From Hymenopellis radicata (taxonomy: Eukaryota > Basidiomycota > Agaricomycetes > Agaricales > Physalacriaceae): a stretch of DNA of 64,000 nt. How positions within the stretch are numbered: the first letter of the stretch is position 1; each line of letters starts with the position of its first letter. The notes under the pieces were generated by a model. It saw only the letters and a program-made list of their open reading frames with translations, was not told the DNA's origin and ran no database searches. The stretch is taken from contig JADNRX010000060.1 in the NCBI GenBank assembly GCA_015501595.1, forward strand, positions 124,001 through 188,000, in the 5' to 3' direction. This document shows positions 4,289 to 49,705 of this stretch, one piece after another. Position numbers and translations under genes: made by a program.

Positions 4289-4815
4289 AACACATAGACC
4301 TTATTATTATCATAGAAATCGCACTGTAGATCGCACTGTTATTAGTACTATAGAATCGCACTGTTCCCTTTTTCTTCAGGAAGCAGTTCGGAGAGGAGGA
4401 GCCTGTTCTAAAGTAGGCTCCAGCCACTTTCGAACCGGCACCTTTCCGGGAAGGGGGAAAAAAGTGCTCCTCCATATATTCAGAAGACCGCAACCGCTAG
4501 ACCGCGAGCCCGTGAACGGCAACGCACTTAGGTCCTGGCAGGCAGACACATGAAACTGAGATGGCGAGGCCTCCCATAATTATTGCAGAAGTGATGGCAT
4601 AGCGGGAGGTCGAGCAAAGAAAAGAATGACCAGGGAAATCATTAAGATTCGAGACCGGCGGCGAAACCGGCACGAATACGAAGGATGCGTAGCCGCTACA
4701 CTAAGTGGGACAGGCTACGAACACTGAGAGAAGTAGAGTATCGGAAGTAGAGGAAGACAGGCACAAAGGGAGGCAACAGGTCAGATGACGATCAGCACCT
4801 CTACACCTAACAGCC
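4289..4815 (+). other. Noncoding spacer between RNase H and recombinase genes, copy 1
   Basis: No convincing open frame lies here. It holds three copies of ATCGCACTGT(T) at 4318-4327, 4330-4340 and 4355-4365, then a perfect 7-bp-arm hairpin, GGAGCCT/AGGCTCC, at 4398-4421. An AT-rich start (TTATTATTATCATAG) could serve 3' end formation of the RT gene, and the rest could be the recombinase promoter. The region is conserved in the other copies (11341-11868 and 18405-18932), which argues that it is functional or recent. Confidence 0.5.
4318..4365 (+). repeat. Three short direct repeats ATCGCACTGT, copy 1 spacer
   Basis: The motif occurs at 4318-4327, 4330-4340 and 4355-4365, with spacers of 2 and 14 nt. 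It lies about 30 bp after the RNase H stop and recurs in each unit. Short clustered repeats beside a tyrosine-recombinase gene could be binding sites for that enzyme; this is inference only. Confidence 0.6.
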
Positions 4816-5897
4816 ATGGCGAGAATCGCCCACAAACGGAGCGCGAAGAAAAAGGCGCCCAAGAACGTCAGGAAGCCGCGCTTACGAGCCAAGAAAGCGG
4901 ACGACGACATACTATCAGACTACATCCTTGCATTCGGAAACAATTCGAACCTATCGGACACAGTAAGAGAGACGATAGCGAAATCATGGGCGACCGGACG
5001 AAGAAAGGTCACAGGGTCGGAATGAGGAGCTATCTGAGATGGTGTGAGGAGTTCGAGATCCCGGTAGCTCTGAGATTTCCAGCCCACGAGGAGATCGTCT
5101 GCGAGTACGCGGCGTCATGGACAGGGAAGAAAGGTTCAGCCTCGCTTGGGTCAAAAATCAACGGGATTCGAGCCTTCCACATCGCGAATGGAGAAGAGTG
5201 GTTCGAGTCGCAGACGCTGAAGCAGGTCCTAGAGGGTGTCAAGAAGGAGAGGCCGCGGGAGAAGAAGACGGTACGACCCCCCGTGACGCTGAGAAGGCTG
5301 CAGATCCTGGTGGAGGGCCTCGATGCGAACAACGGGAAGGACAATTGCGTTGCAGCTATGGCCACGATGGCATTCTACGGGCAGTGCAGGCTAGGAGAGC
5401 TGATGCCGGACTCGCCAAACCGAGAGAAGTTTGAAGAACAGAACTTCCCGAAGTACGACGACTTGGGGGAGGCGCTATCGGAACACGGGTCGAGGTCGCT
5501 CCACCTCCCCTGGACCAAGACGAAGAAGGAGGAGGGCGAGGATGTGACAATATGCGCCCAGCGAGGCACCACGGACCCGATAGCCGCACTCAATCACCAC
5601 ACCATGATGAACGACGTGGAAGGAGGAGAGATGCTTGCGTCCTTCATCGACGAGAGAGGTCAGAGGAAGGTCCTGACGAAGAGAGCCTTTCTGCTGAGGT
5701 GTAACGAGATATGGCTGAAGGAGGGGTTGTCGAGACTCACGGGACACTCCTTCAGGATCGGCGGAACGACCTACTTCTTGCTGAAAGGGAAGGACCCGAA
5801 CGTGGTTAAGGCGCTCGGGAGGTGGTCATCGGACGCATTTTTGCGCTATTGGAGACAACTAGACCAACTAGGGATCATGTATATCGAAATGATGTGA
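4816..5897 (+). CDS. Tyrosine recombinase, copy 1
   Basis: This enzyme integrates the element's circular DNA by site-specific recombination in the nucleus. The start ATG (MARIAHKRSAKKK) opens a basic N-terminus; the same start runs uninterrupted in copy 3. Catalytic residues are visible: Arg in MAFYGQCRLGEL, His and Arg in LTGHSFRIGGTTYF, and the Tyr nucleophile in GRWSSDAFLRYWRQL. The C-terminal part is open to TGA at 5895-5897. One G is missing near 4999 (GACCGGACG against GACCGGGACG in copies 2 and 3), which breaks the frame; with it the protein would be about 360 aa. This is the only copy whose C-terminal half, with all the catalytic residues, reads without interruption. Confidence 0.88.
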
Positions 5898-6381
5898 GGA
5901 ATAGGGATTCGGCTTGCATGGGAATGGGGGTTCGAGAGCGGGCCCTCGACGCGCCGAAGCTTACGGGTGATGGGAGGTTTCGTCCCCCTATCTCTGCTCA
6001 CCCGAGGTCAACCCGGGCGGTCCTCTCCAAGGTCGCCCGAGTTTCCCCTTTCCCCAGCACACACAACTAGTTGTCTTCGAGAAGAATTTACAACAATGCG
6101 ATTATACAGAAATCGGTTTACTAGAGTTGACTATGAAAGACAATTTCCTGTCACTGGATATTCCCCGAGTCGTGAAATTGAAGCTCCGCGGAGGTTGATG
6201 CCGGTAGCGGGAGCGAGCGCGTTTTCACGCGGAATGAGCCACGTGACCTCGTGGCTCTTCTCTTTGCACCACGACCAACGAAGTTCGTGGTATCCGTCGT
6301 CAGCGGCTTCTAAGCAGAACCGCTTCAAGATAACTTTCGCACTCGGGCGTCGTGACAAGCACACACGCAGACGACGGACCT
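5898..6381 (+). promoter_or_regulatory. Noncoding region between recombinase and next gag: likely element terminus and gag leader
   Basis: No gene is seen. This should contain the junction of one unit with the next and the gag promoter/5' UTR. Three hairpins lie in a row near its end: GAGCCACG/CGTGGCTC (6236-6257), ACCACGA/TCGTGGT (6268-6291), and AGCGGCTTCT paired with AGAACCGCT (about 6300-6324). They recur at about 13288-13380 in the next unit. The split direct repeats of Ngaro elements were looked for here but not recognised. Confidence 0.5.
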
Positions 6382-9300
6382 ATGGCGGTAATCGACGACG
6401 AGGATCGCGCGGCGCATCCCGTACCTCGTAGGATTACCAGGGCGAAGAGCACGATCCCAGCCGGGCCGCTCTCGCACGACGATGAGCTATCGAAGGGCCT
6501 GGACAAGTTTACAGCAAGATCTAGAAAGGCGGGTCGACCAGGAGGCGAGCAACTGCAGTCGAATGCTCGGCTCCCTGTTCGGGTCGATGACGCGGAGGCC
6601 CAGGCGGGTCCCAAGGACGTGGATTCGTCGCCTGAGAGGCCGGACGCTCCACAGTAGCCAGGAGGCTCTCTTTCGGAGTGAGAGAGGGCCGAGGGGCGGC
6701 GAGCGGACTCGGGTCGGCTGCAAAGTCGACGGGTAGAGGAGGGGTCGCGTCGAGCGCGACGTCGCGGCCTGCCACGCGAGTCAAATTCGTACCGGCAAGA
6801 ACTCCAGCGGCGCCGTCAGGTGAAGCTGCGAGAACTCGCAGGGATGAGGACGAGCGAGGAGGGCAGCGGCGTCGGGCGAGGACGAGACGGACCCGATCTT
6901 GGAAGACCTCTCCGACGAGGAGGAGGCAGACGAACCAGTGGCGAGTGACGCCGAGGGCCACGACGTGGGTGACACGTCTGGCGGCGAGGAGGAGAGCACA
7001 GCGAGTGCGTATACCACCTCAGCCACGGATCGCAGCGAGCTGATCTAGTTGGTCCACAGGGACAAGTAAAGATAAGGGCCGAGAGCTGGAAATGCGCGCG
7101 GCAGCAAAGGAAAGAGAACAGCGAGTTCGTTACCCTTTGCTTCTCCAGATAGCGGCGAGCTAACTTCTCTTGAACTGTAGAGGCCACCGAGGAGACCTTG
7201 GAATGGGACATGGACGACGACGAGGTGAACGCCGCCATGGACCAGCTTCACGAGGAGGAGTTGGAGAAGCAGAGACTGGCGGAGGAGATGGACGAGTTCA
7301 TTCCCTCCGACGACGACATGGACGAGGAGTACCTGCCGAGGCCTTCAGCCGCTAAGAAGGCGAAGCCAGCAGCGAAACCCAAGAGGAGTCTGGGAAAGGC
7401 AGTAGACGACGCTTTGGCGAGGTCGCCGCTAGCGAAGGCCTTCAGACAGAGATCTTCGAGAGGCAAAGTCTCGTTGGACGCGGTCCCACAAGATGAACCA
7501 GACGAGGACCTGCGAACGTCCCGCGAGCAGGACGAGGACGAGCCAGAGGACGACGAGGAGGATGAACCTCAGGTCCAGCAGGAGGAGGAACAGGCTCAAG
7601 AAGAGGACGATCCTCTTCCGGAGGTCGTCAAGGAGAGGACGCCACAGCCTCCGAAGCAGAAGAAGGTAGCGTCTCGACAGGAGATACGGGAGGCGGTCGC
7701 CAGGAGCCGCGCCATTAAGGAGGCGCAGGCGCGCAAGGCCGAGGCCGAGAAGACCTCGAGAGAGCGCGAGCAGGCTGACGCGGCGGAGCAGAAGCGTCGC
7801 GAGAAAGGGAAAGAGAAGGAGCTCTCGGACCTGGATCGCGCGAGGCAAGACGCCCAACGCGAGAAGGAGAGGAGGGCGAAAGCCGAGAAGGAGGTAGAAG
7901 CTCACAGACTGGCGAGAGAAAGCTCGATGGACGCGGTCAAGGCCGCGACCAGAGAGCGGGACCAGATAAAGGAGAACGCAGAGAGAGCCGTTCGGGAGGC
8001 TAAGGCCTTGCTGAAGGAGGCGGACGAGCGGGTAGCCGAGGCTGTTCGCAGGGAGAAGAAACAGATGAAGGAGTCGGCGAGGCTCGAGAAGGAGAAGGCC
8101 AGACAGGACGCGGACAGGTCACAGAGGGCCCCGAGGAATGACTGGGACGACGAGCTGCGCAAGGCGGTTCCGGAGTTGAGTCCGCGCTCGGCCATGTCGC
8201 TGTTCAAGAAGATAGGCGGCATCATCAAGCAGACGGCCCGGATCTCTCCAAAGCCGTCAGGAAAGCGAAGCAGGGACAGAGGATCGCCTGAAGAGGAGGA
8301 GGTCCAGGTCTCTCCAAAGAGGCCGGACAAGAAGAAGGCGCGGAAACTCAGGACGCCTCCTTCGGAGGACTTCGAGGAGGAGGCGCCGGTCCCGACGGAC
8401 CTATCGAGCCCGTTTGCACATAAGAGGCGACGGAGCGAGGACGACTCCGATGGAGGAGAGAGCAAAAGAGGCAGGATCACGATGGACGACGCCCAGGAAA
8501 GAGAGGAGTGGGCCGTCCCGATTCGAGTTCAGAAGATCCTGCGGGGGGGGTGGAAGGACCCCATCACGATTGGATGTGCACGCCGGAGGCATGCGAGGCA
8601 GATAGGAACAGGCCGCTCGGCCGTGACTACAGGAGGATCACGGTAGCGGACGACGGCGCTCTGGGTTGGAGGCGATAGAAGCGAAGCCCACGCCGGACAC
8701 CATCTTGGAAGAGGGTCCGGGTTCGCCGGACTCACGATCATGGCTGACGCGGTGAGGCGGCATTTCGTGCCACCGAGGAATAAGCTAGGGGTCAGGCTTA
8801 CGAGGACCGCCGACGAAATCGCCGATGAGCTCGAGAATGCTCAGAGGACATTGCATTCGGAAGGCGGGGGTCGCTGGACAGTTCAAGGCCGTTCAGATAT
8901 ACGTGGAGTGGGCGATGAGACACCACTATACCACCAGATTTGGAGTGGATCTGTCGACCTGGTCCGAGAAGAGGTGGCGAATCTCCTTGGATCAGGCGGA
9001 GAAAGAGGCCAAGAAGTCCCGCGACAGCCGTCTAGACGCGAAGATCGAGAACCTGGAGCGCAAAATCCAAAGCGGATCGGGCTCAAACTCTGGAAGAACG
9101 GCTCCTTTCGCAAGGGGAACTCGTCATCCACAGCGAAAGGCTCGTCGGCTTCCACGGCTAAACCACAGCGGGGGCGACGGTGCATGTACGACGGCTCCAC
9201 AGAGCACGAGTCGGCAAACTGCCCGGGAGGAGACTCACATATCGTCGAGCGTGCCCCAAACGGGGCCAAAGGGATGGTCGAAAAGAGGACGGGCAGACGC

Positions 9301-11868: not shown

Positions 11869-12948
11869 ATGGCGAGAATCGCCCACAAACGGAGCGCGAA
11901 GAAAAAGGCGCCCAAGAACGTCAGGAAGCCGCGCTTACGAGCCAAGAAAGCGGACGACGACATACTATCAGACTACATCCTTGCATTCGGAAACAATTCG
12001 AACCTATCGGACACAGTAAGAGAGACGATAGCGAAATCATGGGCGACCGGGACGAAGAAAGGTCACAGGGTCGGAATGAGGAGCTATCTGAGATGGTGTG
12101 AGGAGTTCGAGATCCGGTAGCTCTGAGATTTCCAGCCCACGAGGAGATCGTCTGCGAGTAACGCGGCGTCATGGACAGGGAAGAAAGGTTCAGCCTCGCT
12201 TGGTCAAAAATCAACGGGATTCGAGCCTTCCACATCGCGAATGGAGAAGAGTGGTTCGAGTCGCAGACGCTGAAGCAGGTCCTAGAGGGTGTCAAGAAGG
12301 AGAGGCCGCGGGAGAAGAAGACGGTACGACCCCCCGTGACGCTGAGAAGGCTGCAGATCCTGGTGGAGGGCCTCGATGCGAACAACGGGAAGGACAATTG
12401 CGTTGCAGCTATGGCCACGATGGCATTCTACGGGCAGTGCAGGCTAGGAGAGCTGATGCCGGACTCGCCAAACCGAGAGAAGTTTGAAGAACAGAACTTC
12501 CCGAAGTACGACGACTTGGGGAGGCGCTATCGGAACACGGGTCGAGGTCGCTCCACCTCCCCTGGACCAAGACGAAGAAGGAGGAGGGCGAGGATGTGAC
12601 AATATGCGCCCAGCGAGGCACCACGGACCCGATAGCCGCACTCAATCACCACACCATGATGAACGACGTGGAAGGAGGAGAGATGCTTGCGTCCTTCATC
12701 GACGAGAGAGGTCAGAGGAAGGTCCTGACGAAGAGAGCCTTTCTGCTGAGGTGTAACGAGATATGGCTGAAGGAGGGGTTGTCGAGACTCACGGGACACT
12801 CCTTCAGGATCGGCGGAACGACCTACTTCTTGCTGAAAGGGAAGGACCCGAACGTGGTTAAGGCGCTCGGGAGGTGGTCATCGGACGCATTTTTGCGCTA
12901 TTGGAGACAACTAGACCAACTAGGATCATGTATATCGAAATGATGTGA
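11869..12948 (+). pseudogene. Tyrosine recombinase, copy 2 (frame-broken)
   Basis: Starts at the same ATG as copies 1 and 3. It has the correct GACCGGGACG near 12047, but loses a C near 12115, gains an A near 12160 and loses further bases (near 12203, 12520 and 12924). Arg (YGQCRLGEL), His/Arg (GHSFRIGG) and Tyr (LRYWRQL) codons are all present but in different frames. The last segment (12596-12943) covers the His, Arg and Tyr boxes. Confidence 0.75.
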
Positions 12949-13431
12949 GGAATAGGGATTCGGCTTGCATGGGAATGGGGGTTCGAGAGCGGGCCCTCGA
13001 CGCGCCGAAGCTTACGGGTGATGGGAGGTTTCGGTCCCCCTATCTCTGCTCACCCCGAGGTCAACCCGGGCGGTCCTCTCCAAGGTCGCCCGAGTTTCCC
13101 CTTTCCCCAGCACACACAACTAGTTGTCTTCGAGAAGAATTTACAACAATGCGATTATACAGAAATCGGTTTACTAGAGTTGACTATGAAAGACAATTTC
13201 CTGTCACTGGATATTCCCAGTCGTGAAATTGAAGCTCCGCGGAGGTTGATGCCGGTAGCGGGAGCGGAGCGCGTTTTCACGCGGAATGAGCCACGTGACC
13301 TCGTGGCTCTTCTCTTTGCACCACGACCAACGAAGTTCGTGGTATCCGTCGTCAGCGGCTTCTAAGCAGAACCGCTTCAAGATAACTTTCGCACTCGGGC
13401 GTCGTGACAAGCACACGCAGACGACGGACCT
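12949..13431 (+). promoter_or_regulatory. Unit junction and gag leader between copies 2 and 3
   Basis: Nearly identical to 5898-6381, including the three consecutive hairpins before the gag ATG. No gene is seen. Confidence 0.5.
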
Positions 13432-16400
13432 ATGGCGGTAATCGACGACGAGGATCGCGCGGCGCATCCCGTACCTCGTAGGATTACCAGGGCGAAGAGC
13501 ACGATCCCAGCCGGGCCGCTCTCGCACGACGATGAGCTATCGAAGGGCCTGGACAAGTTTACAGCAAGATCTAGAAAGGCGGGTCGACCAGGAGGCGAGC
13601 AACTGCAGTCGAATGCTCGGCTCCCTGTTCGGGTCGATGACGCGGAGGCCCAGGCGGGTCCCAAGGACGTGGATTCGTCGCCTGAGAGGCCGGACGCTCC
13701 ACCAGTAGCCAGGAGGCTCTCTTTCGGAGTGAGAGAGGGCCGAGGGGCGGCGAGCGGACTCGGGTCGGCTGCAAAGTCGACGGGTAGAGGAGGGGTCGCG
13801 TCGAGCGCGACGTCGCGGCCTGCCACGCGAGTCAAATTCGTACCGGCAAGAACTCCAGCGGCGCCGTCAGGTGAAGCTGCGAGAACTCGCAGGGATGAGG
13901 GACGAGCGAGGAGGGCAGCGGCGTCGGGCGAGGACGAGACGGACCCGATCTTGGAAGACCTCTCCGACGAGGAGGAGGCAGACGAACCAGTGGCGAGTGA
14001 CGCCGAGGGCCACGACGTGGGTGACACGTCTGGCGGCGAGGAGGAGAGCACAGCGAGTGCGTATACCACCTCAGCCACGGATCGCAGCGAGCTGATCTAG
14101 TTGGTCCACAGGGACAAGTAAAGATAAGGGCCGAGACGCTGGAAATGCGCGCGGCAGCAAAGGAAAGAGAACAGCGAGTTCGTTACCCTTTGCTTCTCCA
14201 GATAGCGGCGAGCTAACTTCTCTTGAACTGTAGAGGCCACCGAGGAGACCTTGGAATGGGACATGGACGACGACGAGGTGAACGCCGCCATGGACCAGCT
14301 TCACGAGGAGGAGTTGGAGAAGCAGAGACTGGCGGAGGAGATGGACGAGTTCATTCCCTCCGACGACGACATGGACGAGGAGTACCTGCCGAGGCCTTCA
14401 GCCGCTAAGAAGGCGAAGCCAGCAGCGAAACCCAAGAGGAGTCTGGGAAAGGCAGTAGACGACGCTTTGGCGAGGTCGCCGCTAGCGAAGGCCTTCAGAC
14501 AGAGATCTTCGAGAGGCAAAGTCTCGTTGGACGCGGTCCACAAGATGAACCAGACGAGGACCTGCGAACGTCCCGCGAGCAGGACGAGGACGAGCCAGAG
14601 GACGACGAGGAGGATGAACCTCAGGTCCAGCAGGAGGAGGAACAGGCTCAAGAAGAGGACGATCCTCTTCCGGAGGTCGTCAAGGAGAGGACGCCACAGC
14701 CTCCGAAGCAGAAGAAGGTAGCGTCTCGACAGGAGATACGGGAGGCGGTCGCCAGGAGCCGCGCCATTAAGGAGGCGCAGGCGCGCAAGGCCGAGGCCGA
14801 GAAGACCTCGAGAGAGCGCGAGCAGGCTGACGCGGCGGAGCAGAAGCGTCGCGAGAAAGGGAAAGAGAAGGAGCTCTCGGACCTGGATCGCGCGAGGCAA
14901 GACGCCCAACGCGAGAAGGAGAGGAGGGCGAAAGCCGAGAAGGAGGTAGAAGCTCACAGACTGGCGAGAGAAAGCTCGATGGACGCGGTCAAGGCCGCGA
15001 CCAGAGAGCGGGACCAGATAAAGGAGAACGCAGAGAGAGCCGTTCGGGAGGCTAAGGCCTTGCTGAAGGAGGCGGACGAGCGGGTAGCCGAGGCTGTTCG
15101 CAGGGAGAAGAAACAGATGAAGGAGTCGGCGAGGCTCGAGAAGGAGAAGGCCAGACAGGACGCGGACAGGTCACAGAGGGCCCCGAGGAATGACTGGGAC
15201 GACGAGCTGCGCAAGGCGGTTCCGGAGTTGAGTCCGCGCTCGGCCATGTCGCTGTTCAAGAAGATAGGCGGCATCATCAAGCAGACGGCCCGGATCTCTC
15301 CAAAGCCGTCAGGAAAGCGAAGCAGGGACAGAGGATCGCCTGAAGAGGAGGAGGTCCAGGTCTCTCCAAAGAGGCCGGACAAGAAGAAGGCGCGGAAACT
15401 CAGGACGCCTCCTTCGGAGGACTTCGAGGAGGAGGCGCCGGTCCCGACGGACCTATCGAGCCCGTTTGCACATAAGAGGCGACGGAGCGAGGACGACTCC
15501 GATGGAGGAGAGAGCAAGAGAGGCAGGATCACGATGGACGACGCCCAGGAAAGAGAGGAGTGGGCCGTCCCGATTCGAGTTTCAGAAGATCCTGCGGGGG
15601 GGGTGGAAGGACCCCATCACGATTGGGATGTGCACGCCGGAGGCATGCGAGGCAGATAGGAACAGGCCGCTCGGCCGTGACTACAGGAGGATCACGGTAG
15701 CGGACGACGGCGCTCTGGGTTGGGAGGCGATAGAAGCGAAGCCCACGCCGGACACCATCTTGGAAGAGGGTCCGTGGTTCGCCGGACTCACGATCATGGC
15801 TGACGCGGTGAAGGCGGCATTTCGTGCCACCGAGGAATAAGCTAGGGGTCAGGCTTACGAGGACCGCCGACGAAATCGCCGATGAGCTCGAGATGCTCAG
15901 AGGACATTGCATTCGGAAGGCGGGGGTCGCTGGACAGTTCAAGGCCGTTCAGATATACGTGGAGTGGGCGATGAGACACACTATACCACCAGATTTGGAG
16001 TGGATCTGTCGACCTGGTCCGAGAAGAGGTGGCGAATCTCCTTGGATCAGGCGGAGAAAGAGGCCAAGAAGTCCCGCGACAGCCGTCTAGACGCGAAGAT
16101 CGAGAACCTGGAGCGCAAAATCCAAAGCGGATCGGGCTCAAACTCTGGGAAGAACGGCTCCTTTCGCAAGGGGAACTCGTCATCCACAGCGAAAGGCTCG
16201 TCGGCTTCCACGGCTAAACCACAGCGGGGGCGACGGTGCATGTACGACGGCTCCACAGAGCACGAGTCGCAAAACTGCCCGGGAGGAGACTCACATATCG
16301 TCGAGCGTGCCCCAAAACGGGGCAAAGGGATGGTCGAAAGAAGGACGGGCAGACGCTTCTTGCTTCGCCTGGAACCAGTCCGCCAAGGGATGCGACCGAC

Positions 16401-16495
16401 CCGGCTGCGGAACGGACACCACCTTCGTCCACGCGTGCGCAATCTGCGCGTCGACGGCACACAACTCCTACCACCACCCGCGCGCCTCTTCGTGA
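13432..16495 (+). CDS. Gag-like protein, copy 3
   Basis: The first exon, 13432-14056, is the best version in the window (open from MAVIDDEDR to the acidic EDETDPILEDLSDEEEADEP). Introns are at 14057-14111 and 14178-14233. The main exon is broken by a missing C near 14538 (GGTCCACAAG against GGTCCCACAAG), an extra T near 15580, and further indels near 15811, 15978 and 16270-16360. The zinc-finger end (CFAWNQSAKGCDRPGC) is open from 16307 to the stop. Function as for copy 1. Confidence 0.75.
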
Positions 16496-33342: not shown

Positions 33343-34309
33343 AACATTACATCTAGTTGTCGACCTGAAAGCTGTGACTGAATCTTGAGCAGCGTCAATC
33401 ATACTTGGATCTATGTAACGTTTCTGCATTACACTGGAAGGGGATGTAGATGTGAAGTGTACGTACGAAGGCTAGCAAGGTATTACTACCCAGCCTCCTT
33501 CCTACATCGACACTTGCTCGTGTTCTAAGGGGGCTAGGTTACCTCGCTATTCGAAGGCAACAAACGACTAGCCACCAATCTCTCAAAGATTCAACAGTGT
33601 TTTTACGAATTTAATAACCCTAGATTGTCTGTACACTGTAGTCTCTTCAAAACAGACGCTATATACATGATCGATTTTTGTAATGTGAGGTTGATCGATG
33701 TGTATAGAGTCTGTGAGTACAGGCCTTCGCACCAAGATCGGCGGCGTATTCACCTGTGTTTGTTCAATGGATTTGATGGCACAAACCTCGCACCTTCGGT
33801 AGACACTTCAAAAATTGGTAAAACCACACACTTGTAGAGAGAAAGTTGCTCAGAATATAAATCTTAATGAGGCCCTGGAGACAGATTTTTTTATTTCCTG
33901 CTCTGTTCTGATTTAGCCAAAGCCAGGAAAGAAATTTGAGAAATCTGCTTCCAGGGCCTCATTGAGATTCTAAAACTACAGTAACTGCAACTTGTTCTAA
34001 GGGGATACCATGAGTGTACGCCGTTGCAGCGAGGGCGCGAGTATTGATGTGCTTGCTGCCATCCGATCACAGTGATGTGCCTTCCACGTTCATGGCGCAT
34101 CTCTCATTCGGTAAAAATCTGAGTACTGATTTCTATGTTCCTACACATGATTTCTGGCAGGTTTGGCATACATCTGGTCTATGTTGGAGGATAGAGAAAG
34201 CAAGGCATGGATTTGCCATCGATCGAGGGGGAGATACAGGCCAGGTAAACAAGAACAAACACGCCGCACATTTTGGACTGAGTCTGTCGATTAAGTTGGG
34301 GCCTGTACC
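33343..34309. other. Intergenic region
   Basis: Holds the foldback element at 33860-33969 and otherwise no gene I can support. Short frames here (for example 33625-33837) have no family features. Confidence 0.4.
33860..33969. mobile_element. 110 bp foldback (MITE-like) element
   Basis: The ends are inverted copies of AATCTYAATGAGGCCCTGGA, continuing to CAGATTT after a 2-nt difference, so about 29 bp pair with only 3 mismatches. The inner sequence also pairs in part (ATTTCCTG with CAGGAAAGAAAT), making most of the element one stem. No clear target-site duplication is seen in the flanks. Superfamily unknown. Confidence 0.75.
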
Positions 34310-34531
34310 CAGACTCCTTCCCATTCGCTCTTACGCCCAGCGAAATAATCTCACTTCCTTGGGCGGTGGACGGAAAGATCTAGAATAGATGACCAATGTA
34401 TTTTAATCTAATCTACTTGTTATCTATTTGTTATCTCTTATCTCCCTTATCTTAGCAGTCCCATCAAACCTTAATTATTTAGCTAGGGCGTAAGAGCGAC
34501 TGGCATAACTTGCAAGGTTTGTTTGTTTGGC
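34310..34531 (+). repeat. Left inverted-repeat arm
   Basis: 222 bp matching the reverse complement of 41720-41923 at both ends, with a diverged middle. Each arm is itself bounded by a small inverted repeat (TCGCTCTTACGCC at 34325-34337 and GGCGTAAGAGCGA at 34488-34500), so it could form a hairpin. Confidence 0.7.
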
Positions 34532-34661
34532 TACAGCTTTCAACGCGGATCGTGGTGGCCTCATGCCCGACTATCGATGGGCGCATCGCGTCCCGCTGCC
34601 TCGTGCACTTTAAAATAGCTACGAGAATGAAATTTATTAATTTTATTGAAAGACTACCATC

Positions 34662-34919
34662 ATGTCCACTGTTTTGATTGTCAGTTGCCTCCTTGCTGCC
34701 CTCTGCGCCACACTCAAAATGCGCTGCGCCGGCTGTCTGTCCCAAAATATGTACCACGAAATTGACGATGACATGCCGTCACTAGTGGATCCAGACAGCC
34801 CATCCCTGCCAATGGCTCCCCTGCCGAACCCGAACATCCATCCATGTAATTTGGAGCGCACACTCGTTGTCATTGCCGGCGATGGTATGACTGTGACACG
34901 ACACACTGTCAGTCAATGA
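34662..34919 (+). CDS. Small hypothetical protein with hydrophobic start
   Basis: An 85-codon frame from an ATG (MSTVLIVSCLLAALCATLKM), with a signal-like or anchor-like hydrophobic start and then an Asp/Pro-rich tail. It sits between the left inverted repeat and the DUF6589 gene. No homologue is recognised. It could be a chance frame or part of an unrecognised 5' exon. Confidence 0.2.
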   Translation: MSTVLIVSCLLAALCATLKMRCAGCLSQNMYHEIDDDMPSLVDPDSPSLPMAPLPNPNIHPCNLERTLVVIAGDGMTVTRHTVSQ

Positions 34920-35058
34920 TAGATCGGTGAGAATCTACACGTACCAATTCGATCTCCAAGGACTAAACGAATGAAATAGTAGCCCACGTTGCAAGGGTAG
35001 AAGGAGGTGTCGTGGTAGAATAGAACCCCGTGTATCTTGCCATTGTCTTGACTCAACC

Positions 35059-38034
35059 ATGTATCCTTCGAGCGGCATTCCTTGGGTGAACGCAATTGTT
35101 GACGTCCTCGATCGCAACAATCAATCTCTACTCGATCTCATCAGAGAGACTCTTCGACATGGCGGAAACGTACTCAACATGTCGCGCCATCGGCGGAGCA
35201 TGACTCTCAATATTGCGGCTTTGATAGATCTACTGAAGGAACAGGCTGAAGAAGATGTCAACGAGCAGGCTATGCAGGTAGCACGGATCACTTGCCAGAC
35301 GGAGCTTCAGGAGCTGATCTTGAAGCGCCACGAGCTGCACTTCGGGGCAACATCGGCAACATTGGATCAGCTGGAAACGTTCTCCATCGAAGGACTGGCA
35401 TTGACAATGAAGGAAGTCTGCCCGAATATCTGGTCGCTGTTGACGCTCTTGCTAGACGTCAATCCGGAGCGACGTCGCGATTATAATCCCAACTTCGGCG
35501 AGGACGGCGGTGATGACGAAGGGCTTGACGGAGATGAAGACGAAGACGGGGATGAAGAGATGACAGTTGGCGATGATGACGAGGATGATCTGATGGCATT
35601 GATTCGGATGCCATTGAGGAGGACGAGGAACCTTCAGACGACGACATGGAAGTCGACGTCCCGACTCGTCAACCAGCACAAGAGGCATCACGCGATCCTG
35701 GCTCTCGAAGCGCCATACCTGACGAACAAGACGAAGAGAACGAATCAGAAGATGAACAAGAGAAGAAGAAGAAGAAAAGACGGCGTACCCAAGATCGCGC
35801 TGGTAGAGCGCGTGCTCTGATGTCAATTGTATGTATACGTTATCAAGCACTGAACTGATTCTAACCATCCTAGAAACGGGTCGTAATCTTGTCAATCCTT
35901 GGGCACAGCTCAAATGAACGATTCAACTCACTTCAATCCATTATCGGGTTCTTTCTGGAGTCAAAGCAGTGCCCGGAAGTCATCGTCGAGTTGGTCGCGC
36001 ACATGGGGATCTCTATCTCGTTGGGGAGTGTCCAGAACATGGTTGATTCGCTGAACCTCAAGGCGAGGGAGCGTCTAAAGTCCCTGGAACATTGCAACAG
36101 CATCTATGACAATTTCGACATGGACTTCGCCTCAGCCCAGCCTACTATGGAAAAGGATAAGCATCACTGGAGCGCTACCGCGGCAACGTTCGTACCTTAT
36201 CGTGAGGTCGAGAAGACTCGCGACCTCAAGCATACGCAGGAGCTGCGTCTCACAAGCGAGCACAACATCTTACTCGATGCGAACGATCCGAGTATCAAAC
36301 ATGCCGGATTCCGAGACGTCCTTCCCACCACCCTACCACCAGCTCCCCCTCCTCAAGTCCCCACTCCGTTGGAATCATCGTGTGAGGCGTCGTCAACTCC
36401 AGCCCAGTCGACGGGCACTCCATCTTCGCAATCATCCGCTCCCGGACCATCAGCTAGTGCATCGTCAGCCGCTTCTGAGCCATCCACAGCAGATGGCGGA
36501 AACTGGGGACCAATAGACGAAGCAGCCATCGCAGGCGACGCGCCGTTGAGCGAGGCATTGAGGTGGCATATCCTCTCCATCTTGGTCGAGCACGGGGGAC
36601 CAAATTTTGCGGTATACAAGGACAAGTTGGGTGTCCCGGCGACGGTACGGGGACTCTCCTACGAGCACAGAGATCGTCAGTATCCGGCGGGCGCGATTGA
36701 CGCTGATGAAGGCACTTACGATGGAAATTGGGACGTCCTGCTCGACATCTTCACTAAACAGCGACACATCGGAGAAGATTTCCACAAAGACTTTGTGTCC
36801 TTCCTGCACGGAGATCTCGGGACCAAGGAGCGTATTGATGGTCTAAAGAAGATGCGCAAAATCGAGGCGAATGAGTGGCGGCGCCTCGATGGCATCATCT
36901 TTATTCCGGGCCTCTTCCATGTCAAGATGGCGGCGGCGAATGCTTATTGGCGTATTCACGTCCAGCCCGCCGGCGACCGAAACGAACCGCTCGGAGCCTT
37001 CGAGTACATTAGTAAACTTCGACCCAAAGCAACGGGAGAGTTTACCTCAAAAACGGGACCGTCCTTTCGAGCCATGCATGACAGTATTCATCACATCGCG
37101 TGGGTGGACATCCTGGACATCTGGCGCGTCGAAGTGAAGAGCAAATTTGGGTTGGATTCGCTTGACGCTTGGGCTAAGACAAAGCCTTCCTGGGACGCCG
37201 TTGAATCATTATCGCGGCATATTTTCGAGAAGCACTTACCCGGAGACGAGTTCGAATACGAACAGGAGGAGAGTGACGAAAAGAGAGACCAGGTTTTCGA
37301 GAACATGTGTCTGCGGAATCAGCACGGATTATTATACCTCGAGTTCTGTCGTGCGATGAATGCCGGCGATGTGGGGAGGATCTTGCAGTTGCTCCCGTAC
37401 TTCATCCCGATCTTCGCGGCTACTGGCAAGCATAAGTACGCGGCCCACATGACAAAATTCTTGAACGACTTGTACCATGTATATCCTCCATGGTTACGCG
37501 AAGCCGTCCTTCGAAACTGGCTGTTTAACAACAAGTGCACGCCAGATGGTTTTCGCGCGTTCGATTGGCTTCAGGAACTAAACAATCTGTATACCAAGGT
37601 TAGTTTTCAAAGCTGCACATGAACTGAATTAATACGCACACTGTCAACAGGTCATATTCGCGGGGAAGGGTGTCAATCGGACGAAGAAACTTGTCCTCAA
37701 GCGATCCGTTCTCCTAGAAGTCTACCGATCGATGCAAAGCACAATCGAGAACAACTTCCATCTAACGCATCGCACTGTCCGTCACTCGAAGCCGAGCATG
37801 ACACGAACGCTGCGCCGCCTGGGTACGGAGGTCGCGCCGCTGGAGCCACACATCGTCAATGCTGGGCGAACGAGCAGCATAAAGAACTCCAAAAGAAAGT
37901 GGAATATTCAGAATGCAGTTTCCGAGGGACTAGGAGTTCTCGCGACGAAAAAAGATCTATTCATGGTAGGCGATAACGAAACTGGCGGGGAAGAAATTAG
38001 CGAGGTGACAGGTGATGATGTCGGAGCCGTATGA
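35059..38034 (+). CDS. DUF6589 domain protein
   Basis: Exons are 35059-35828, 35874-37598 and 37651-38034, with 45 and 52 nt introns. DUF6589 landmarks are visible: CNSIYDNFDMDF, a disordered Pro/Ser linker (PPAPPPQVPTPLESS), FIPGLFHVKMAAANAYWRIHVQP, GDVGRILQLLPYFIPIFAATG, KHKYAAHMTKFLNDLYHVYP, FRAFDWLQELNNLYTK-V and a C-terminal ENNFHLTHRTVRH. The family is abundant in Agaricomycetes and of unknown function. Its conserved acidic YDNFD motif and repetitive genomic distribution, as I recall it, would fit a transposase-like role (inference). In exon 1 the acidic tract changes frame near 35595: the frame that splices into exon 2 opens there, just after a TGA. That is either a one-base error or a real break. 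Confidence 0.8.
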
Positions 38035-38472
38035 ACATACCTATACTACTGAGATGTATCCATAGGTGTCGAGGATGGCGACGGCGGGACGTTCTCGCCT
38101 GCAGCACGCAATACTAAAGGGCACTTCTTTTTGTTATTGCCTGCAGTTCAAGTATTAGTTTCAATGCTCAAAAGAGAGTACTAATACTCACAGCGATGGC
38201 CCTGCTGATGACAACGACTGCAGGTTTCAACGCGAGTCCTTGTCCGGCTCATCGGAGCATTAGCTGTTGTGGGTGGTGCTCGCGATGGAGTGTCCGTGGG
38301 TACTGGCATTTGGACAGGCTGCCAGATCAACTGCGCTGGAGTGTTCGATGTGCCTGGTGTTGGCGTCGCTGGCGCGCTGAACGTGAACGGAGTGTTTGAG
38401 AGGTTGGAACCGAATACGCGCTGTCGCTGTGCCAGCGGGGTTGAGACGAAGGGTGATGTCGATGGTGGAGGT

Positions 38473-39588
38473 TAGAGACCTCAACGAGTCAGCGGATCAC
38501 ACGGGTTTACCCATACTCGATCCGCTCGGGCATCTCGGAGATCCGATCCGTTTGATCCGTAGACTCGTGGCGGGTCGGATCGCAGATGGATCGCGGATCA
38601 GCCTCTGGAGGCACGAGTACTCGTCGCGAGTACTCGTGTTGACTCGCAATTATGTAGCTATATATTTACTCTTAATTTACAAATTTTTACAAAGTTAAAC
38701 GGGGCTGTGCGTCGCCCAAACCAGCCATTCGCGTGAATTTCTCATCTATTCCCACGATCCGGCAAATACCGAGAGGACGCGTAAGCGCGATCGATGACTC
38801 GATCTCTCTCTCTCTCCCCCTTCGACCACCACCACGACTACCCAGTGTGCGACGATCGTCGCCACTGCCTCTCTGACGATTGTCAGGAGGCCTCTGGGGT
38901 GTTTTCTTGGGCCCTGGCTGTGTGCTGGGCTTGCTGCTGTCTCTGTGACAGCAGCAACGGACAACTTCAACCACAGCACCGACTTTGGACGACAACGACG
39001 ACTCGTGGACGACTCGTGGAGGATGCGCGAGGCGGTAACGGAGATGTGATGATGGATGGAGGATGGCACATTGACGAGGTGAGCTGCGTGCGCGCTGATG
39101 GACCCGACAGCGACGCCAATGCTGACCCACACCACCACCACCACCTACACCCTCACCACTCACACCCACATCACCCCACCACCTCCACCACCATCACCCC
39201 ACCACCTCCACCACCATCACCCCACCACCTCCACCACCATCACCCCACCACCTCCACCACCATCACCACACCACCTCCACCACCATCTGCATCACCACTC
39301 TGACTCCCACTATCCTCCTGCCACCACCCAGTCCGCATCATGCATGGCTGAGTGTCCCCGTGCCATTGCCCGGGGATACTCGTCGCGCATGAATGGATTT
39401 GGGTGCGTTGAATACTCGAGTTTACTCGAGTACTCGACCCGCTCGGCGTTCTCAGTGATCCGATCCGTCTGATCCGTCGATTCGTGGCGGGTCGGATCAC
39501 ATAAGGATCACGGATCGGCACTTTCGGCCACGGGTACTCGCGTGATGGATCGCGGATCTGATCCGGATTTGAGTCGTTGAGGTCTCTA
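38473..39588. mobile_element. Non-autonomous hAT-type element (1,116 bp) with 8-bp target duplication
   Basis: Terminal inverted repeats TAGAGACCTCAACGA (38473-38487) and its complement (39574-39588) are flanked by identical 8-bp GTGGAGGT at 38465-38472 and 39589-39596. An 8-bp duplication with a TAG-start terminus is the hAT hallmark. Both subterminal regions carry a direct repeat of about 110 bp (about 38518-38640 and 39428-39545), rich in GATCCG and CGAGTACTCG motifs. No transposase is encoded; the centre is a CAC-rich repeat. It sits inside exon 3 of the helicase gene. Confidence 0.9.
39129..39300 (+). repeat. CAC-rich minisatellite inside the hAT-type element
   Basis: A CACCAC run is followed by about four copies of a 23-nt unit (ATCACCCCACCACCTCCACCACC, given here as its key pattern of CCACC blocks). 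The long Thr/Pro/His frames across it are artefacts of the repeat. Confidence 0.75.
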
Positions 39589-41719
39589 GTGGAGGTGGGG
39601 CTTTCTTCGCCGGCGGGCAGAACTCCTTGATCTTCGCGAGGATCTCGGAACCCACGTCGTCGATGAAGAACCATGGCGTCTGTTTTCGCAGGTCCTCCAA
39701 CGACTGCAGCTTTCCATAGTGGGCTAAGTCAACCATTCGCGAGAGCAGTTTGGTCGGCCACAAAGATTGTGGCGTAATCATTTTGCCCGGACCCACCTCC
39801 TTCGCCCACAGACGCCGCCGAACGAGGTCTAATTCCTTTCTCAACTTCTCCTCCTTTTCACCTCGCTCGTAGGCCGCAGGGTTGTACATCCGCGAGCCAG
39901 TCTCCTTGGCAAATACGTCTGGTGCTGGAGGCGTGTTCCAGTAAGTCGGGTGACAGATGTCACAACAGAATTCGGCGGTCTTGGGGGCGCAGCGAGTGCA
40001 GCAGTCCTTATCGACGATGGGGGCTGAGAGAAGAAGTAAGCGTTTACGTTGATGATGATGATTTGATCAACATCACGTACCCAGGTTAACGCTGCCGAAA
40101 TGTGTGAGCACAACTCTCCTTCGACACCTCACTACACGATTCTCGGCGTTGATAAAGTCATCCATGGACTGTTCAATTTTTATCTCCTGGCCGAATACAT
40201 CCTTGTCTCTGATTTCGGGAATGGTCTCCGTGGTCTTCTTTCGCTTGCGCGAAGACTTGTTCTCAGTCAATTTGCGCTTCCTGCTATTTGTCGGCTGCGT
40301 TCCAGCGGCCTGAGCAGCTGCTATCGCATCCGCAATCGCTTTACGGTGAAGCTCCTCTTGTTCGAGCCTCTCCTTCTCGGCCTCGGCTTTCTTTGTGGCG
40401 GCCTTCGCCTTCTCATCATCGAAATAACTGGGCTCGGCAAGAAGGATCGCGGTTCCATTGAGCTTGTAGTCGCGAACGGCGCGTCCCGCACGTTGCCACC
40501 AGGTGCTGAGAGACTTGGGCACACCATACTGGATGATTTGGTAGACATCCGGGAGGTCAATACCCTATAACGCGAGTTAGTGGCATGTTTCATCCCACGT
40601 AACCGTACTGACCAGACCGACAGCTTCCGTTGCACACTCCCCGTCTACCTCACCAACCTTCAGGAGATAGAGCTCTTCTTTGCGAAACTCGTCCGTCATT
40701 CCCGCGTGGACCCATTTAATTCGATGCTGCTGGTCTTTTGGAAGGCGAGCTCTGAGAAATTCGGCGGCGGCTTGCGCCTGCTTTCGACCGTTAAAGAACA
40801 TCAGGAATTTCTTTGGACGAGGGCCATCAGGAGGGATATCCTTTGGAACGAAGTCGGCGAGATCACGGAATGAGTTGGCTGGATGTTGCATACGTTTGAC
40901 GCGGAGATAGATGTTGGGGCGGTCGATGTTCATGCGGAACACCTTCGTATTGTTTCGCATGCGCAAGTGAGCCTTGATTTCTTCGGTGGCGGCCGGTGAT
41001 AGGGTGGCGGAAGCGATGTGAATGGGGACGTGGCGTACCATCAAGTTACGGAATACTCCAGCGCGCGCGTATGCCTGACGGAATGTCATACCCCACTCCT
41101 TAATGACATGTGCTTCATCGAACACGAGATTGACGACGTTTCGCATGAAGGTTCGGTTCTTGAGTAAGTCTTCGAAGTGGGGATTTCCGACCATTGTCTC
41201 CGGGCTGAAGATAGCAGCACGGTATTTGCCTTTCACAATGTCCTGGAAGAATGGTAAATTTGTTTCTATAAGATCTGCAAACCAAGCTACCTTGAAGACC
41301 TCTTCCCCGGAATTTTTGGCAGTGACATTGATGGCATTCAGCTTCTTGAGCATGAGGTCGGCTTCGAACTGTGCGCCAAGTTGCTTCAAGGGTACAACCA
41401 TCAGTACCACCCCTCCTTCAGCAAACAGAAGGACCATCCAATATGTGAGAGTCTTCCCGGCACCGGTTGGTGCAATGGTGACAACGTCGTTGCCGTCAAG
41501 AATAGCACGAACAACCTTAAGCTGCCACAAGCAGGGACGTACGCCGAATGCCTTTTCCACCATGTCCTGGGCCTCGGTGTCGGACTCGGGCATACAATGA
41601 CATTTCTTCTTTGGCTCGGACATGAGGCTCGCGACTTGTGCGTCTTCTGATGGAGGATCCTGTGGCTGTGTAGAATTTTGGAAGTCGCCTTGCCTTGCCC
41701 GAATGTGCTGGACGGTGTT

Positions 41720-41923
41720 GCCAAACAAACAGCACCCTACAAGTTATGCCAGTCGCTCTTACGCCTTAGCAGAATAATTAAGGTTTGGAGTACTTATATA
41801 AGCATCAATATTTAGATCGAGGGTTCAATTCGCGTTCAAACCAATTATATTTTACGCCACATATTACTGTACAGGGATTTAGGATTATTCTGCTGGGCGT
41901 AAGAGCGAATGGGAAGGAGTCTG
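41720..41923 (-). repeat. Right inverted-repeat arm
   Basis: 204 bp, the inverted counterpart of 34310-34531. It also carries internal TCGCTCTTACGCC / GGCGTAAGAGCGA ends (41753-41765 and about 41897-41909) enclosing AT-rich DNA. It abuts the 5' end of the helicase frame. Confidence 0.7.
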
Positions 41924-42109
41924 CATTGCGACTACTTCCGCTCCTCTTGACTACTCACGGTATCTCATCTATCTACGAGAGAGCATAAGGTACTCGGGAG
42001 AAGCATTGCGCCGTTTGCTGGCGGGCGATGTAGACGGGTGCGTTCCTTCCAATTGTAGCTTATGCTCTAAGCTTAAATACTTATTCAGGATGTATAGGTG
42101 ACCATACAA

Positions 42110-42420
42110 CGATATGGAGACAGCGAGGCAACTGCAAGCACAACAACACCCGACTGCGAGGCCAATGCGGGCGTGACAACACGGCTCAGCGAGCACAACC
42201 ACACGGCGATACAGCTCAGTGAGCAAAATGCCACGGTGATTGCGAGGTGACTGCGACCACGACAACGCGAGTAGTGCAAGCACGACAGGCACTGCGACCA
42301 CGACAGTGCAAGCAGTGCAACCGTGACGGGTACTGCGACCACGACAACACGGGTACTGCGAGCACGAGTACGGTGACACAACCACCAGGACACAGCGACT
42401 CAGACATGGCGAGCAGGGAT
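42110..42420 (+). repeat. Degenerate minisatellite built on ACTGCGACCACGACA
   Basis: Variants of ACTGCGACCACGACA and GCGAGCACAACCAC recur irregularly through about 300 bp (for example near 42248, 42290 and 42334). Minus-strand Ser/Arg/Val frames across it are by-products of the repeat. Confidence 0.6.
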
Positions 42421-43150
42421 GCGACGGTGCTAGAGATCTCAGACTTGGAAGGACTGCATGTTAATATAGGAACCTATGCCGGACAGGTCGAGACTTCCAG
42501 ATGCAATGTACCATATCACAGAGCAGGAATAACTTTTATTCCTAACCTTCACCGCTGATGTCGAATGAGCGTGTAATGCTGAGCTGCTCATAGACAGATT
42601 GCCGCTCACACCGCGTGCAGACCCAAAAAACTGAGGTTGCCAACTGCGTCCCGACTGGCCGTAATCCTTCTACTTTTTGCGCAGGCAACGAACACGTCGG
42701 GCGCGAGCTGGGAACAGGCCGCGTGGGCCATGTGCGAGGATGGGCGCGAGCTTGCCTGCTTCGCACCTGGCGAACTTAGGGGACCTGCCTTAAATAGTCA
42801 ACTTACATAATAAGTCCAACCGCGGTACAGCCCCACTTAAACACTAGACTATGTACACTGCCCGACGTTGCTTAACGCTTAACGTAGACGATAGCGCCCC
42901 ATTACCCTCTCCCTTAACACTTAGAGAGCCTCAATCTAGGGATCTACGGTTATTGAATTCGTGGAAACGCTATTGCGTGTTATTGTTCTCAGGCTCGCCT
43001 CCAAGTTCTCGCTCATATCCCTCATGGCTTGTTGTTGCTTTTGTATATCTCCGCCGATGGCATCTCGAGAACGAACAGCTGCATTTCACTCCATCATTCC
43101 ATTGTTGTTCCACACAATTGACTCGTGGGTGTCGTGTCTGTTTTGACTAG

Positions 43151-46802: not shown

Positions 46803-49705
46803 ATGCAGCCAGGATGTCCTACGCCCGAAGAATCGCCTCCGAATGAGGCTGATACTGCTAATGTCCGAATCTCTCTGGAATCCTTCGGAGACAAGGACGC
46901 CCCCGAGCCTCCCCAAACAGCATCTCGTACGCGTCGGAAACCCACAGTGCAACCCGACAAGCACTTTTTTGGAATTAAACAGGACGCCCCTCCCCCTGGC
47001 TTCGTCTTCAACGACGACTATGACACGCGGTTCCCAGATGATCCGTATTGTAAAGAGACTTCTGCTCCCAATGCCAAGGTATGGCGCGTGTACGTTGAGG
47101 AAGCCGCTGCGTTCGATGCCAACATGATTGGGCGATATCGCGACGGTCTAGATGTTATGCTCGTATTTGTATGTGATTTCGCTGGTTACGACGAACTGTA
47201 TCTGACTTGGAACTTAGGCTGGGCTTTTCTCAGCTGTCGTAACGTCGTTTCTTGTACAGGCATCCCAGAACTTGCAGGCAGATTATGGAGAAATGACCGC
47301 CATGCTTCTCCATGATCTCGTGGCCATTCAGCTTTCTCTGGCTGATGGTGCCTCCGTCGTCAATATCACCAGCCCTTCCGCGAACCCCACTGGAGCGTTC
47401 GTGGCGAACAGAATTGATGTCTTGGTCAACGGCTTTTGGGTCGTCAGCCTTTCTGCGAGCCTAGCCGTTGCACTTGCGGCTGTTCTCGTCAAACAGTGGC
47501 TTCACCACTATACGTCGCTCCTTTCCGGTACCTCTCGTCATCGCAGTCATGTGCGCCACTCCAGATTCACAGGCCTCGAACGTTGGCGCGTTCGCGTTAT
47601 CATAGGAACGTTGCCAATCATCATGCATCTTTCCCTCATGCTCTTCCTCTCCGGTCTGATCCTTTTTTTCGTTCCCTTGCATGTGTCGCTAGCGTGGGCT
47701 GTCGGCGTGATAACAGTGATTCTCTGCACACTGTACTTCATCAGCAATGCCCTCCCGATCTTTTACCCCCAGTGTCCGTATCAGACCCCGCTGAGTGACT
47801 TTCTTAACTCTGCCTCCCAGGTCTGGCATATTGTGCAGAGGGCCGTTGAAGCACAACGTTGTTTGAGGCCATACCTCGGTTATTTGCCTTGGAGGTGGAG
47901 ACTGCGGAAACCGAGGCGAAATTTGCAATCATTGAGAGGTTTGGAACATGACAAGGTCTTCGTTGACGCGCTAGACTGGCTTTATGCAACATCATCAAAT
48001 CCAGTTGTAGAGCGCATCATTTTAATGGCCATTGGAGGCCTTCCCGCTTCGGTGCAACAGTATGCTGCCTCAACCTGGCATGACCCAGGGAGCATGGTGC
48101 TTACGCGTGAGAACATTATCAGGGAGTCGACCGTCGGCAAAGTCCAAGCCGGTGAGATGGTACTCACGTGTCTCCCTGGCTCGGAGTCTACTCTTGAGCG
48201 GCTCTTTCGTACCTGGCTCTTCCTTCCAACTTCGCGCTGGATGGGACGAGCAAGGATTCCCAACAAAGGAAATGCTCAATTGGATCTAGCATTGGCGATT
48301 ACGCCAATGGTCCGGGGAACACCAATACAGATCAGGGAGCTATTCATTGAACACCACGATAATGCTATCCATCCTCTAGTCTGGAACAAACTTGTCACCC
48401 TGGCTGCTTCCAATGGCGCTTTTCGGTTGAGTGACCCGAAAGTGACGGCTAGTGCCCATGCTCAGTTCATTGCTGTCATGTTACCCGAGAACAACCCTTC
48501 CCCACCAAACAAGACTGATTTTCCCCAGAACAACCCTTCCCCACCAAACGAGACTGATTTTCCCAAAAAATTGCGACATGCATTACAAGTGTGTCCCCCG
48601 CCGCTCTTTGGGACTACTTCTTAGAGATGCCGGTGCTGATGGCCTTCGATGTTGGCCCGTTGTCGTCGTCGTCAATCTCCCATCGTGCCTCCTTGCCGCT
48701 GCAAAATTTGCATTGCATCACATTGACGAGGGTCACACTCTGCCGGAAGTTGACATCGATAACTCTTCTTTGGCATGCGAGATCCAGTCTCATTGGACCT
48801 TGCTGCATACGGTTTTGAGTTATTTGAAGTGGTGCTATAGTATTGATGAACGGTCATTAAATGAGCTATTGGAACAGATTGTGCTACTTCAAGTTGAAGC
48901 ATTCAGACTTTTGGACAGCCCGGATCATACTCCTTCCGTACCAGTGCACCTCCTCGATGGATGTATGTCCGCTATCCTCTCAATTTGCGAGAGAAATACT
49001 ATCGGGAAGGTTTCCTATCCTGCGCGACCTATTCATACAACTCTATTACATGTCACGATGTCTCGCTTGCAGTACAATTACACCCAACACCCAATGGACT
49101 ACGTATCCTTCCGTTCCATGCTACGATCCGCAGATTCTCTGATGAGAGCGGCACTAAATGCAGGCCATCACGAAGCATATTGTCTCTTCGCCCAAGACAA
49201 ATGGATACAGAGACTCGGTCCACTGTGGATGGCAGGATGGGATTGGGAAACAGGACCTGTGCTATACCCAAGACTGGGAGTACAAATCATTGACTGCTTT
49301 GTTTTTGGTCTTACCACACCGTCGATGGCTGTCTCTCGACAACAATTTATCGACCACCTCTACGAGCCCGAGAACCTCGCTATCGCCGTGTGTGTCGTCT
49401 TTCCCGATGCCGAAATGTTGCGGTCCTTGACTGCACTCAATCCGACGCATTCGTCCTGGGATAGATGTCGGGCTCTCATGGAGAGTATTATAGCCTGGAA
49501 CCGTAGTCCTGATCGTGAGACTACAGAGTTTCCAGGGGAGTATTTACTCGCCAGCAAGGTCGTCCAGTGTTCAGATCAGTCTGTATCTTTGGAGGAGCAT
49601 ATACGGAGGCGGTTTATGGGCGAGGAGGCAGGAGAGAAGCTTGATATGGCTATGCAAGTCCTCAATGAAAGCCTCCTTGTAGAACAATCAAGTCGGCCCC
49701 AGTGA
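46803..49705 (+). CDS. DUF6535 membrane protein, paralogue 3 (two frame breaks)
   Basis: Exon 1 is 46803-47168 (MQPGCPTPEESPPNEADTAN; FNDDYDTRFPDDPYCKE; VWRVYVEEAAAFDANMI). The intron is 47169-47217, at the same site as in the other paralogues (LVF-AGLFSAVVTSFLVQ). The frame runs to 48624 with membrane segments GFWVVSLSASLAVALAAVLV and RVIIGTLPIIMHLSLMLFLSG. The homologous reading then shifts to SPAALWDYFLEMPVLMAFDVG (about 48590-48680) and again to LAAAKFALHHIDEGHTLPEV, which runs to 49705. Either two small indels or an unrecognised intron explain this. The protein would exceed 900 aa. It belongs with paralogue 4 to a second subfamily that lacks the first intron. Confidence 0.7.
48488..48565 (+). 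repeat. 39-bp in-frame tandem repeat in DUF6535 paralogue 3
   Basis: Two adjacent copies, 48488-48526 and 48527-48565, encode NNPSPPNKTDFPQ and NNPSPPNETDFPK. The unit is a multiple of three, so it keeps the frame. It lies just before the first frame break. Confidence 0.85.

Follow-up and report, generated by a model that had tools for sequence, protein, structure and literature searches.

A helicase-bearing DNA transposon of Hymenopellis radicata, probably AcademH-like, with a putative DUF6589 transposase and foldback ends

The AcademH lineage of the Academ superfamily of DNA transposons was reportedly described by Kojima 2020. Among other DNA transposons, Mutator-like elements (MULEs) produce target duplications of about 9 bp, and the P element and hAT elements have no helicase and produce duplications of 8 bp. 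Published work describes Academ with a RecQ helicase (PMC3627910) and fungal Academ copies that contain DEAD and recQ_fam among other domains and frequently appear in annotations as host genes (PMC6416283). Target duplications of AcademH are 9 or 10 bp (PMC10045372), the lineage is found in low copy numbers in Basidiomycota, Ascomycota, and Mucoromycota (PMC10799480), and putative nonautonomous Academ elements occur in Marasmius oreades (PMC8290104). A RecQ helicase is also present in KolobokH, which is confined to fungi, the Kolobok duplications being TTAA (4 bp), and MuDR shares the C/DxxH motif (PMC9587614). Here, we analyze an element of 7,614 bp in a 64-kb stretch of contig C963 of Hymenopellis radicata (hereafter the window), which we compared with the genome of 75.5 Mb in 1,405 contigs. 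The element encodes a DUF6589 protein and, on the other strand, a RecQ-like helicase, and the two genes converge with stops at 38032-38034 and 38046-38048, as the original prediction had stated. The inverted repeats which that prediction saw around the pair, and put at about 210 bp, are arms of about 220 bp that align over their full length with the corresponding arms of other elements. Very probably, the element is a degenerate cut-and-paste DNA transposon belonging to the helicase-bearing (AcademH-like) type of Academ, to which it is matched by its parts and by the duplication length of its relatives.

The two genes are strongly linked across the genome. We found 88 matches to the DUF6589 exons, which merge into 45 loci. 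Among the 32 RecQ matches, 29 lie within 10 kb of such a locus, all 29 in convergent orientation, when chance would link around 0.4 of the 32 (45 loci of 20 kb each in 75.5 Mb). The tail-to-tail arrangement is found in many units of this genome. Only three RecQ matches are unlinked (C3, C1340, and C719). Since some contigs look like mutual duplicates, the 29 linked matches are not all independent. A RecQ partner was counted at 28 of the 45 DUF6589 loci, which is a lower bound since C704 was counted as partnerless and yet has DEAD and Helicase_C frames downstream on the opposite strand. Three contig pairs (C551/C700, C1295/C1342, and C349/C763) carry matching units with equal or near-equal scores, possibly a double counting of haplotypes. 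Contig C845 has two DUF6589/RecQ units (5154-9020 and 12598-16464) in mirror order and with equal spacing, which may be a palindromic duplication or an assembly artefact.

A two-gene relative of the window element is on contig C698, where the same terminal sequence bounds 6,901 bp flanked by a 9-bp duplication (ACAAAACAC) and containing both genes tail to tail. Stretches of 121 bp and 96 bp at its two ends are identical, and its RecQ is 57% identical to that of the window across residues 50-380 of the latter. The C698 frame has two stops over this span, which may be introns or decay. The left arm of the window element has 55 matches in its own genome, many of them in inverted pairs of about 0.9-2 kb end to end. 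We read 16 such places: 15 have CAGACTCCTTCC at start and end, C733 has lost one end, and the sequence outside differs. An exact 9-bp target duplication surrounds 15 of the 17 elements read with both ends, a count that includes the window element and C698 and leaves out the truncated C733. It is lacking from the window copy and from C656, the latter with two flanks that are nearly reverse complements of each other. The window arms are up to 99.6% identical to the corresponding arms of the short copies, and no match between these copies and the window element was found outside the arms, a pattern that short non-autonomous derivatives would be expected to show. The copies on C829 and C1 are 99.6% identical over 928 bp and occupy different sites with different duplications. 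For all three elements tried, we recovered paralogous empty sites in which the 9 bp occur once: C698 (on C852 and C596, where the match continues 18 bp beyond the junction), C561 (on C1141), and C774 (on C147).

These results bear on the possibility, raised in the original prediction, of independent arms derived from a short repeat, which would then flank two host genes by accident. The absence of a duplication from the window copy and the occurrence of arms without these genes speak for accident and against a transposon. Elsewhere, the arms are inverted pairs bounded by 9-bp duplications and aligned over their full length, and C698 has both genes between arms that start with the same sequence, together with a duplication, even if such a unit was seen once. 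Independent repeats are thus very improbable. Neither the two genes unlinked nor the arms mostly alone, which were named in advance as outcomes contrary to a mobile unit, was seen in this genome.

Reading 13 of the DUF6589 loci revealed five units bounded by exact 9-bp duplications. Their ends are CAGACT in C698 and TAGTCT or TAGTCC in C671, C851, C796, and C704. Hits of the TAGTC type arise 0.025 times per 13 shuffled loci and are absent from the rest of the window. When the TAGTC rule is dropped, the scan for 9-bp duplications with 5-nucleotide ends yields 2.3 hits in 13 shuffled loci and 18 hits in window positions 1-33500, the site of a long tandem repeat, so that it is meaningful only when combined with the terminal motif. 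The remaining 8 loci showed no bounding 9-bp duplication; one of them (C1212) runs to the contig end and another (C563) has inverted ends of 73 bp at 92% identity and no duplication. A helicase of the RecQ/DEAD type is also encoded in the units of C698, C704, and C851. At each of two loci (L070 and L072), one open reading frame (ORF) scanned on the far side of DUF6589 matched no Pfam family.

The features of the window element are given in Table 1. No tRNA was found in the window, nor any Rfam match at the gathering score.

Table 1. Features of the window element, of its arms and genes, and of the insertions within and around it
Feature	Position	Strand	Details
Whole element	34310..41923	.	7,614 bp; start CAGACTCC, end GGAGTCTG; same terminal sequence bounds the two-gene element of C698
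Left terminal inverted arm	34310..34532 (end approximate)	+	Element 1-223, 99.6% identity to arms of C561 and C774
Left arm, outer half of foldback	34321..34349	+	
Left arm, inner half of foldback	34474..34503	+	
DUF6589 gene, putative DDE transposase	35059..38034	+	PF20231, E 1.2e-87
DUF6589 exons, by eye	35059-~35820 (frame change near 35590), ~35874-37598, 37652-38034	+	
Codons of the predicted D/D/E triad	D 36108-36110, D 36813-36815, E 37575-37577	+	Conservation count
RecQ-like helicase gene	38046..41623	-	DEAD E 2.3e-16, Helicase_C E 3.7e-5; hAT-like insertion inside
Nested hAT-like insertion	38473..39588	.	1,116 bp; 8-bp duplication GTGGAGGT; within the helicase gene
Right terminal inverted arm	41700..41923 (start approximate)	-	Element 7391-7614, 96.4% identity to arm of C807
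Right arm, inner half of foldback	41749..41778	-	
Right arm, outer half of foldback	41884..41912	-	
Outer host element X	33639..42851	.	Termini TAGTCT/AGACTA; 9-bp duplication TGTACACTG at 33630-33638 and 42852-42860

Pfam gives DUF6589 (PF20231) no functional name. By prediction, the protein looks like the transposase of the element, with an RNase H-like fold and conserved D/D/E residues. The residues D79, D314, and E568 stand out in a conservation count over the window protein and 183 of 202 DUF6589 proteins (those of at least 300 residues). We considered E490 as third catalytic residue and rejected it, since it is E in just 63 of 174 rows and E568 fits instead. A structure model built from 58 of the 83 collected proteins and the window ORF has a predicted local distance difference test (pLDDT) of 83 and a predicted template modeling score (pTM) of 0.83. 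With Foldseek alone, no row reached E ≤ 0.001, and a sequence search of the PDB gave no match. A second look by structural comparison, of a kind that could not demonstrate the absence of a fold, found the model to resemble the DDE transposases of the P element and Hermes, in line with the transposase-like character that had been suspected. Model residue 582 is aligned to residue 545 of the P element and 586 of Hermes, which puts E568 at the same distance as E531 and E572, respectively, provided that the tail has no gap. DUF6589 thus shares its predicted fold with P element and hAT (Hermes) transposases, and the window element differs from these systems in its RecQ helicase and in the 9-bp duplications of its relatives. 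Many mushroom-forming fungi have relatives with DUF6589, entered either as hypothetical proteins or by the name of the domain. None of the named matches listed is from animals, which is not evidence of absence, as the list holds only the nearest and most rows are nameless. One scan of viral contigs with a single DUF6589 protein gave no relative, and plasmids gave no match.

The helicase is best matched in NCBIfam by TIGR00614 recQ_fam (E 1.9e-29, below the curated cut-off of the model), and its top matches among solved structures are RECQL5, WRN, and BLM. By eye, it also has a Cys-rich stretch and a zinc-knuckle-like end. It looks like the partner of the DUF6589 transposase in a single transposon.

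Other transposons share some of these parts. Long inverted ends, which are common in MULEs, and 9-bp duplications would also suit a MULE, but this duplication length is shared with AcademH and is not decisive. In the window, Pfam shows no MULE transposase domain in the three DUF6589 exons scanned, and where MuDR has C/DxxH (PMC9587614), between the second D and the last E, DUF6589 has G346-x-x-H349, each residue being 99% conserved. The element is therefore highly unlikely to be a MULE. KolobokH, a fungal lineage of Kolobok, also combines a DDE transposase, predicted in our case, with a RecQ helicase, and is found only in fungi (PMC9587614). However, neither its signature C/DxxH nor the TTAA duplication of Kolobok is seen here, 15 of the 17 elements read having varied 9-bp sequences instead, so that we give this assignment next to no credence.

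Each arm of the window element contains a foldback. In 31 of 34 arms, the outer site of 12 nucleotides (in the window, CGCTCTTACGCC) is matched by an inverted partner within the arm, the far edge of the partner being 153-195 bp from the arm tip. We aligned these 31 arms (27 distinct rows), excluding three that lack an inner partner (C698 5', C467 3', and C844 3'). In the resulting stem of 28 pairs, 97.8% of the cells are paired, 14 pairs have two-sided changes (37 cells), and 12 are invariant. None of 500 shuffles reached the values for stem pairing, two-sided changes, or covariation score (0.161), although related sequences can beat shuffles without structure. Of the five covariation measures, that of further standard pair types was no higher than in shuffles, 215 of the 500 reaching it. 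When the partner was slid by 1-3 columns, only 34-40% of cells were paired, a control in which a structure derived from the sequences favors itself over its slid versions. The stem is the longest feature in predicted folds of single-strand DNA, with z-scores of -4.3 and -5.2 for the left and right arms of the window and -2.8 for the right arm of C698. The two window arms differ on both sides of the stem at alignment column 34. In the C641 element, stem pairs are altered on both sides in one arm and retained in their old form in the other. The changes in C641 are not explained by a shared protein-binding consensus. In the units of C671, C851, C796, and C704, a test of the first 45 nucleotides gave scores within the shuffled range. 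Hence, the foldback is established only for the CAGACTCC type of end.

A tentative and rather doubtful proposal is that the pairing itself matters: RecQ would open the end, a stem of about 28 pairs with a loop of about 85-125 nucleotides would form as a foldback or cruciform, and the transposase would read its shape. Alternatively, conversion within the arm may keep two inverted binding sites similar to each other.

The Academ assignment has to be weighed against a separate, unnamed superfamily with 9-bp duplications, in which a DDE transposase and a RecQ helicase were paired independently. Several points favor the latter. DUF6589 is functionally unnamed in Pfam, its main exon matched no NCBIfam model, no mention of the term was found in the papers of one open literature library, and the link with Academ is indirect. 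Yet a RecQ helicase in Academ (PMC3627910), DEAD and recQ domains in fungal Academ copies (PMC6416283), and AcademH duplications of 9-10 bp (PMC10045372) are all published, which makes a separate superfamily unlikely. Like AcademH, the family has a helicase beside the putative transposase in Basidiomycota (PMC10799480), and the 9-bp duplications are present in four further DUF6589 units besides the 15 elements. The likeness is drawn from published descriptions of AcademH. Since the 9-bp duplication and the RecQ helicase agree with published Academ and AcademH, these elements probably form a new family within a known kind, and probably within AcademH, as judged from parts and duplication length.

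The original prediction spoke of a possible new mobile unit. The coherence of DUF6589 and helicase as such a unit is borne out by the linkage, the paired ends with 9-bp duplications, the empty sites, and the predicted transposase-like fold. Its novelty is narrower: helicase-bearing Academ elements are published (PMC3627910, PMC6416283, PMC10045372), and what is fresh is DUF6589 as putative transposase and the covarying foldback. These are the parts worth following in a real DNA transposon family that is ordinary in kind and whose copy in the window is nested and apparently dead. In its transposition, DUF6589 would bind the ends, excise the element, and join it to a target, the stagger being 9 bp. 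The RecQ helicase would open or remodel the ends or a repair intermediate, and the short copies would be mobilized in trans. This reading gives an unnamed protein family a proposed function. Reading DUF6589 and the neighboring helicase as transposase and partner of one transposon would correct gene counts and tie short repeats to their likely source, and the copies with empty sites are a set in which the role of a helicase in cut-and-paste transposition can be addressed.

The window copy looks dead. DUF6589 has a frame change (a small indel or an unrecognized short intron), the helicase gene carries an insertion, and a new reading of the flanks found no target duplication, just as had been reported. 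The missing duplication is accompanied by a deletion beside the intact left end: the element is nested inside X, and its left junction lacks 66 bp of X by comparison with the X copies on C540, C1194, and C1040. Aberrant insertion, later loss, or mis-assembly may account for this. X copies on C540, C1040, C620, and C658 also have 9-bp duplications, and none was seen for those read from C1194, C989, and C1096. The ends of X resemble those of the DUF6589 unit on C796 (TAGTCTCTT...AACAGACG), of which X is probably a short relative. An insertion of about 565 bp lies within X at 33715-34279, between two copies of GAGTCTGT, and part of it matches C889 at 92.5%. The claim that the repeats separate two DUF6535 paralogues is right in that one such gene lies on each side of the element, the DNA between them being larger than thought, since it is X as a whole.

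A third DUF6535 gene is found nearby, at 47218-48624 (E 4.3e-42). At the other side of the window, from 1 to about 20000, tandem copies are spaced by about 7.05 kb and contain an ORF (4737-5897) that has no Pfam match and whose end resembles a tyrosine recombinase by motif.
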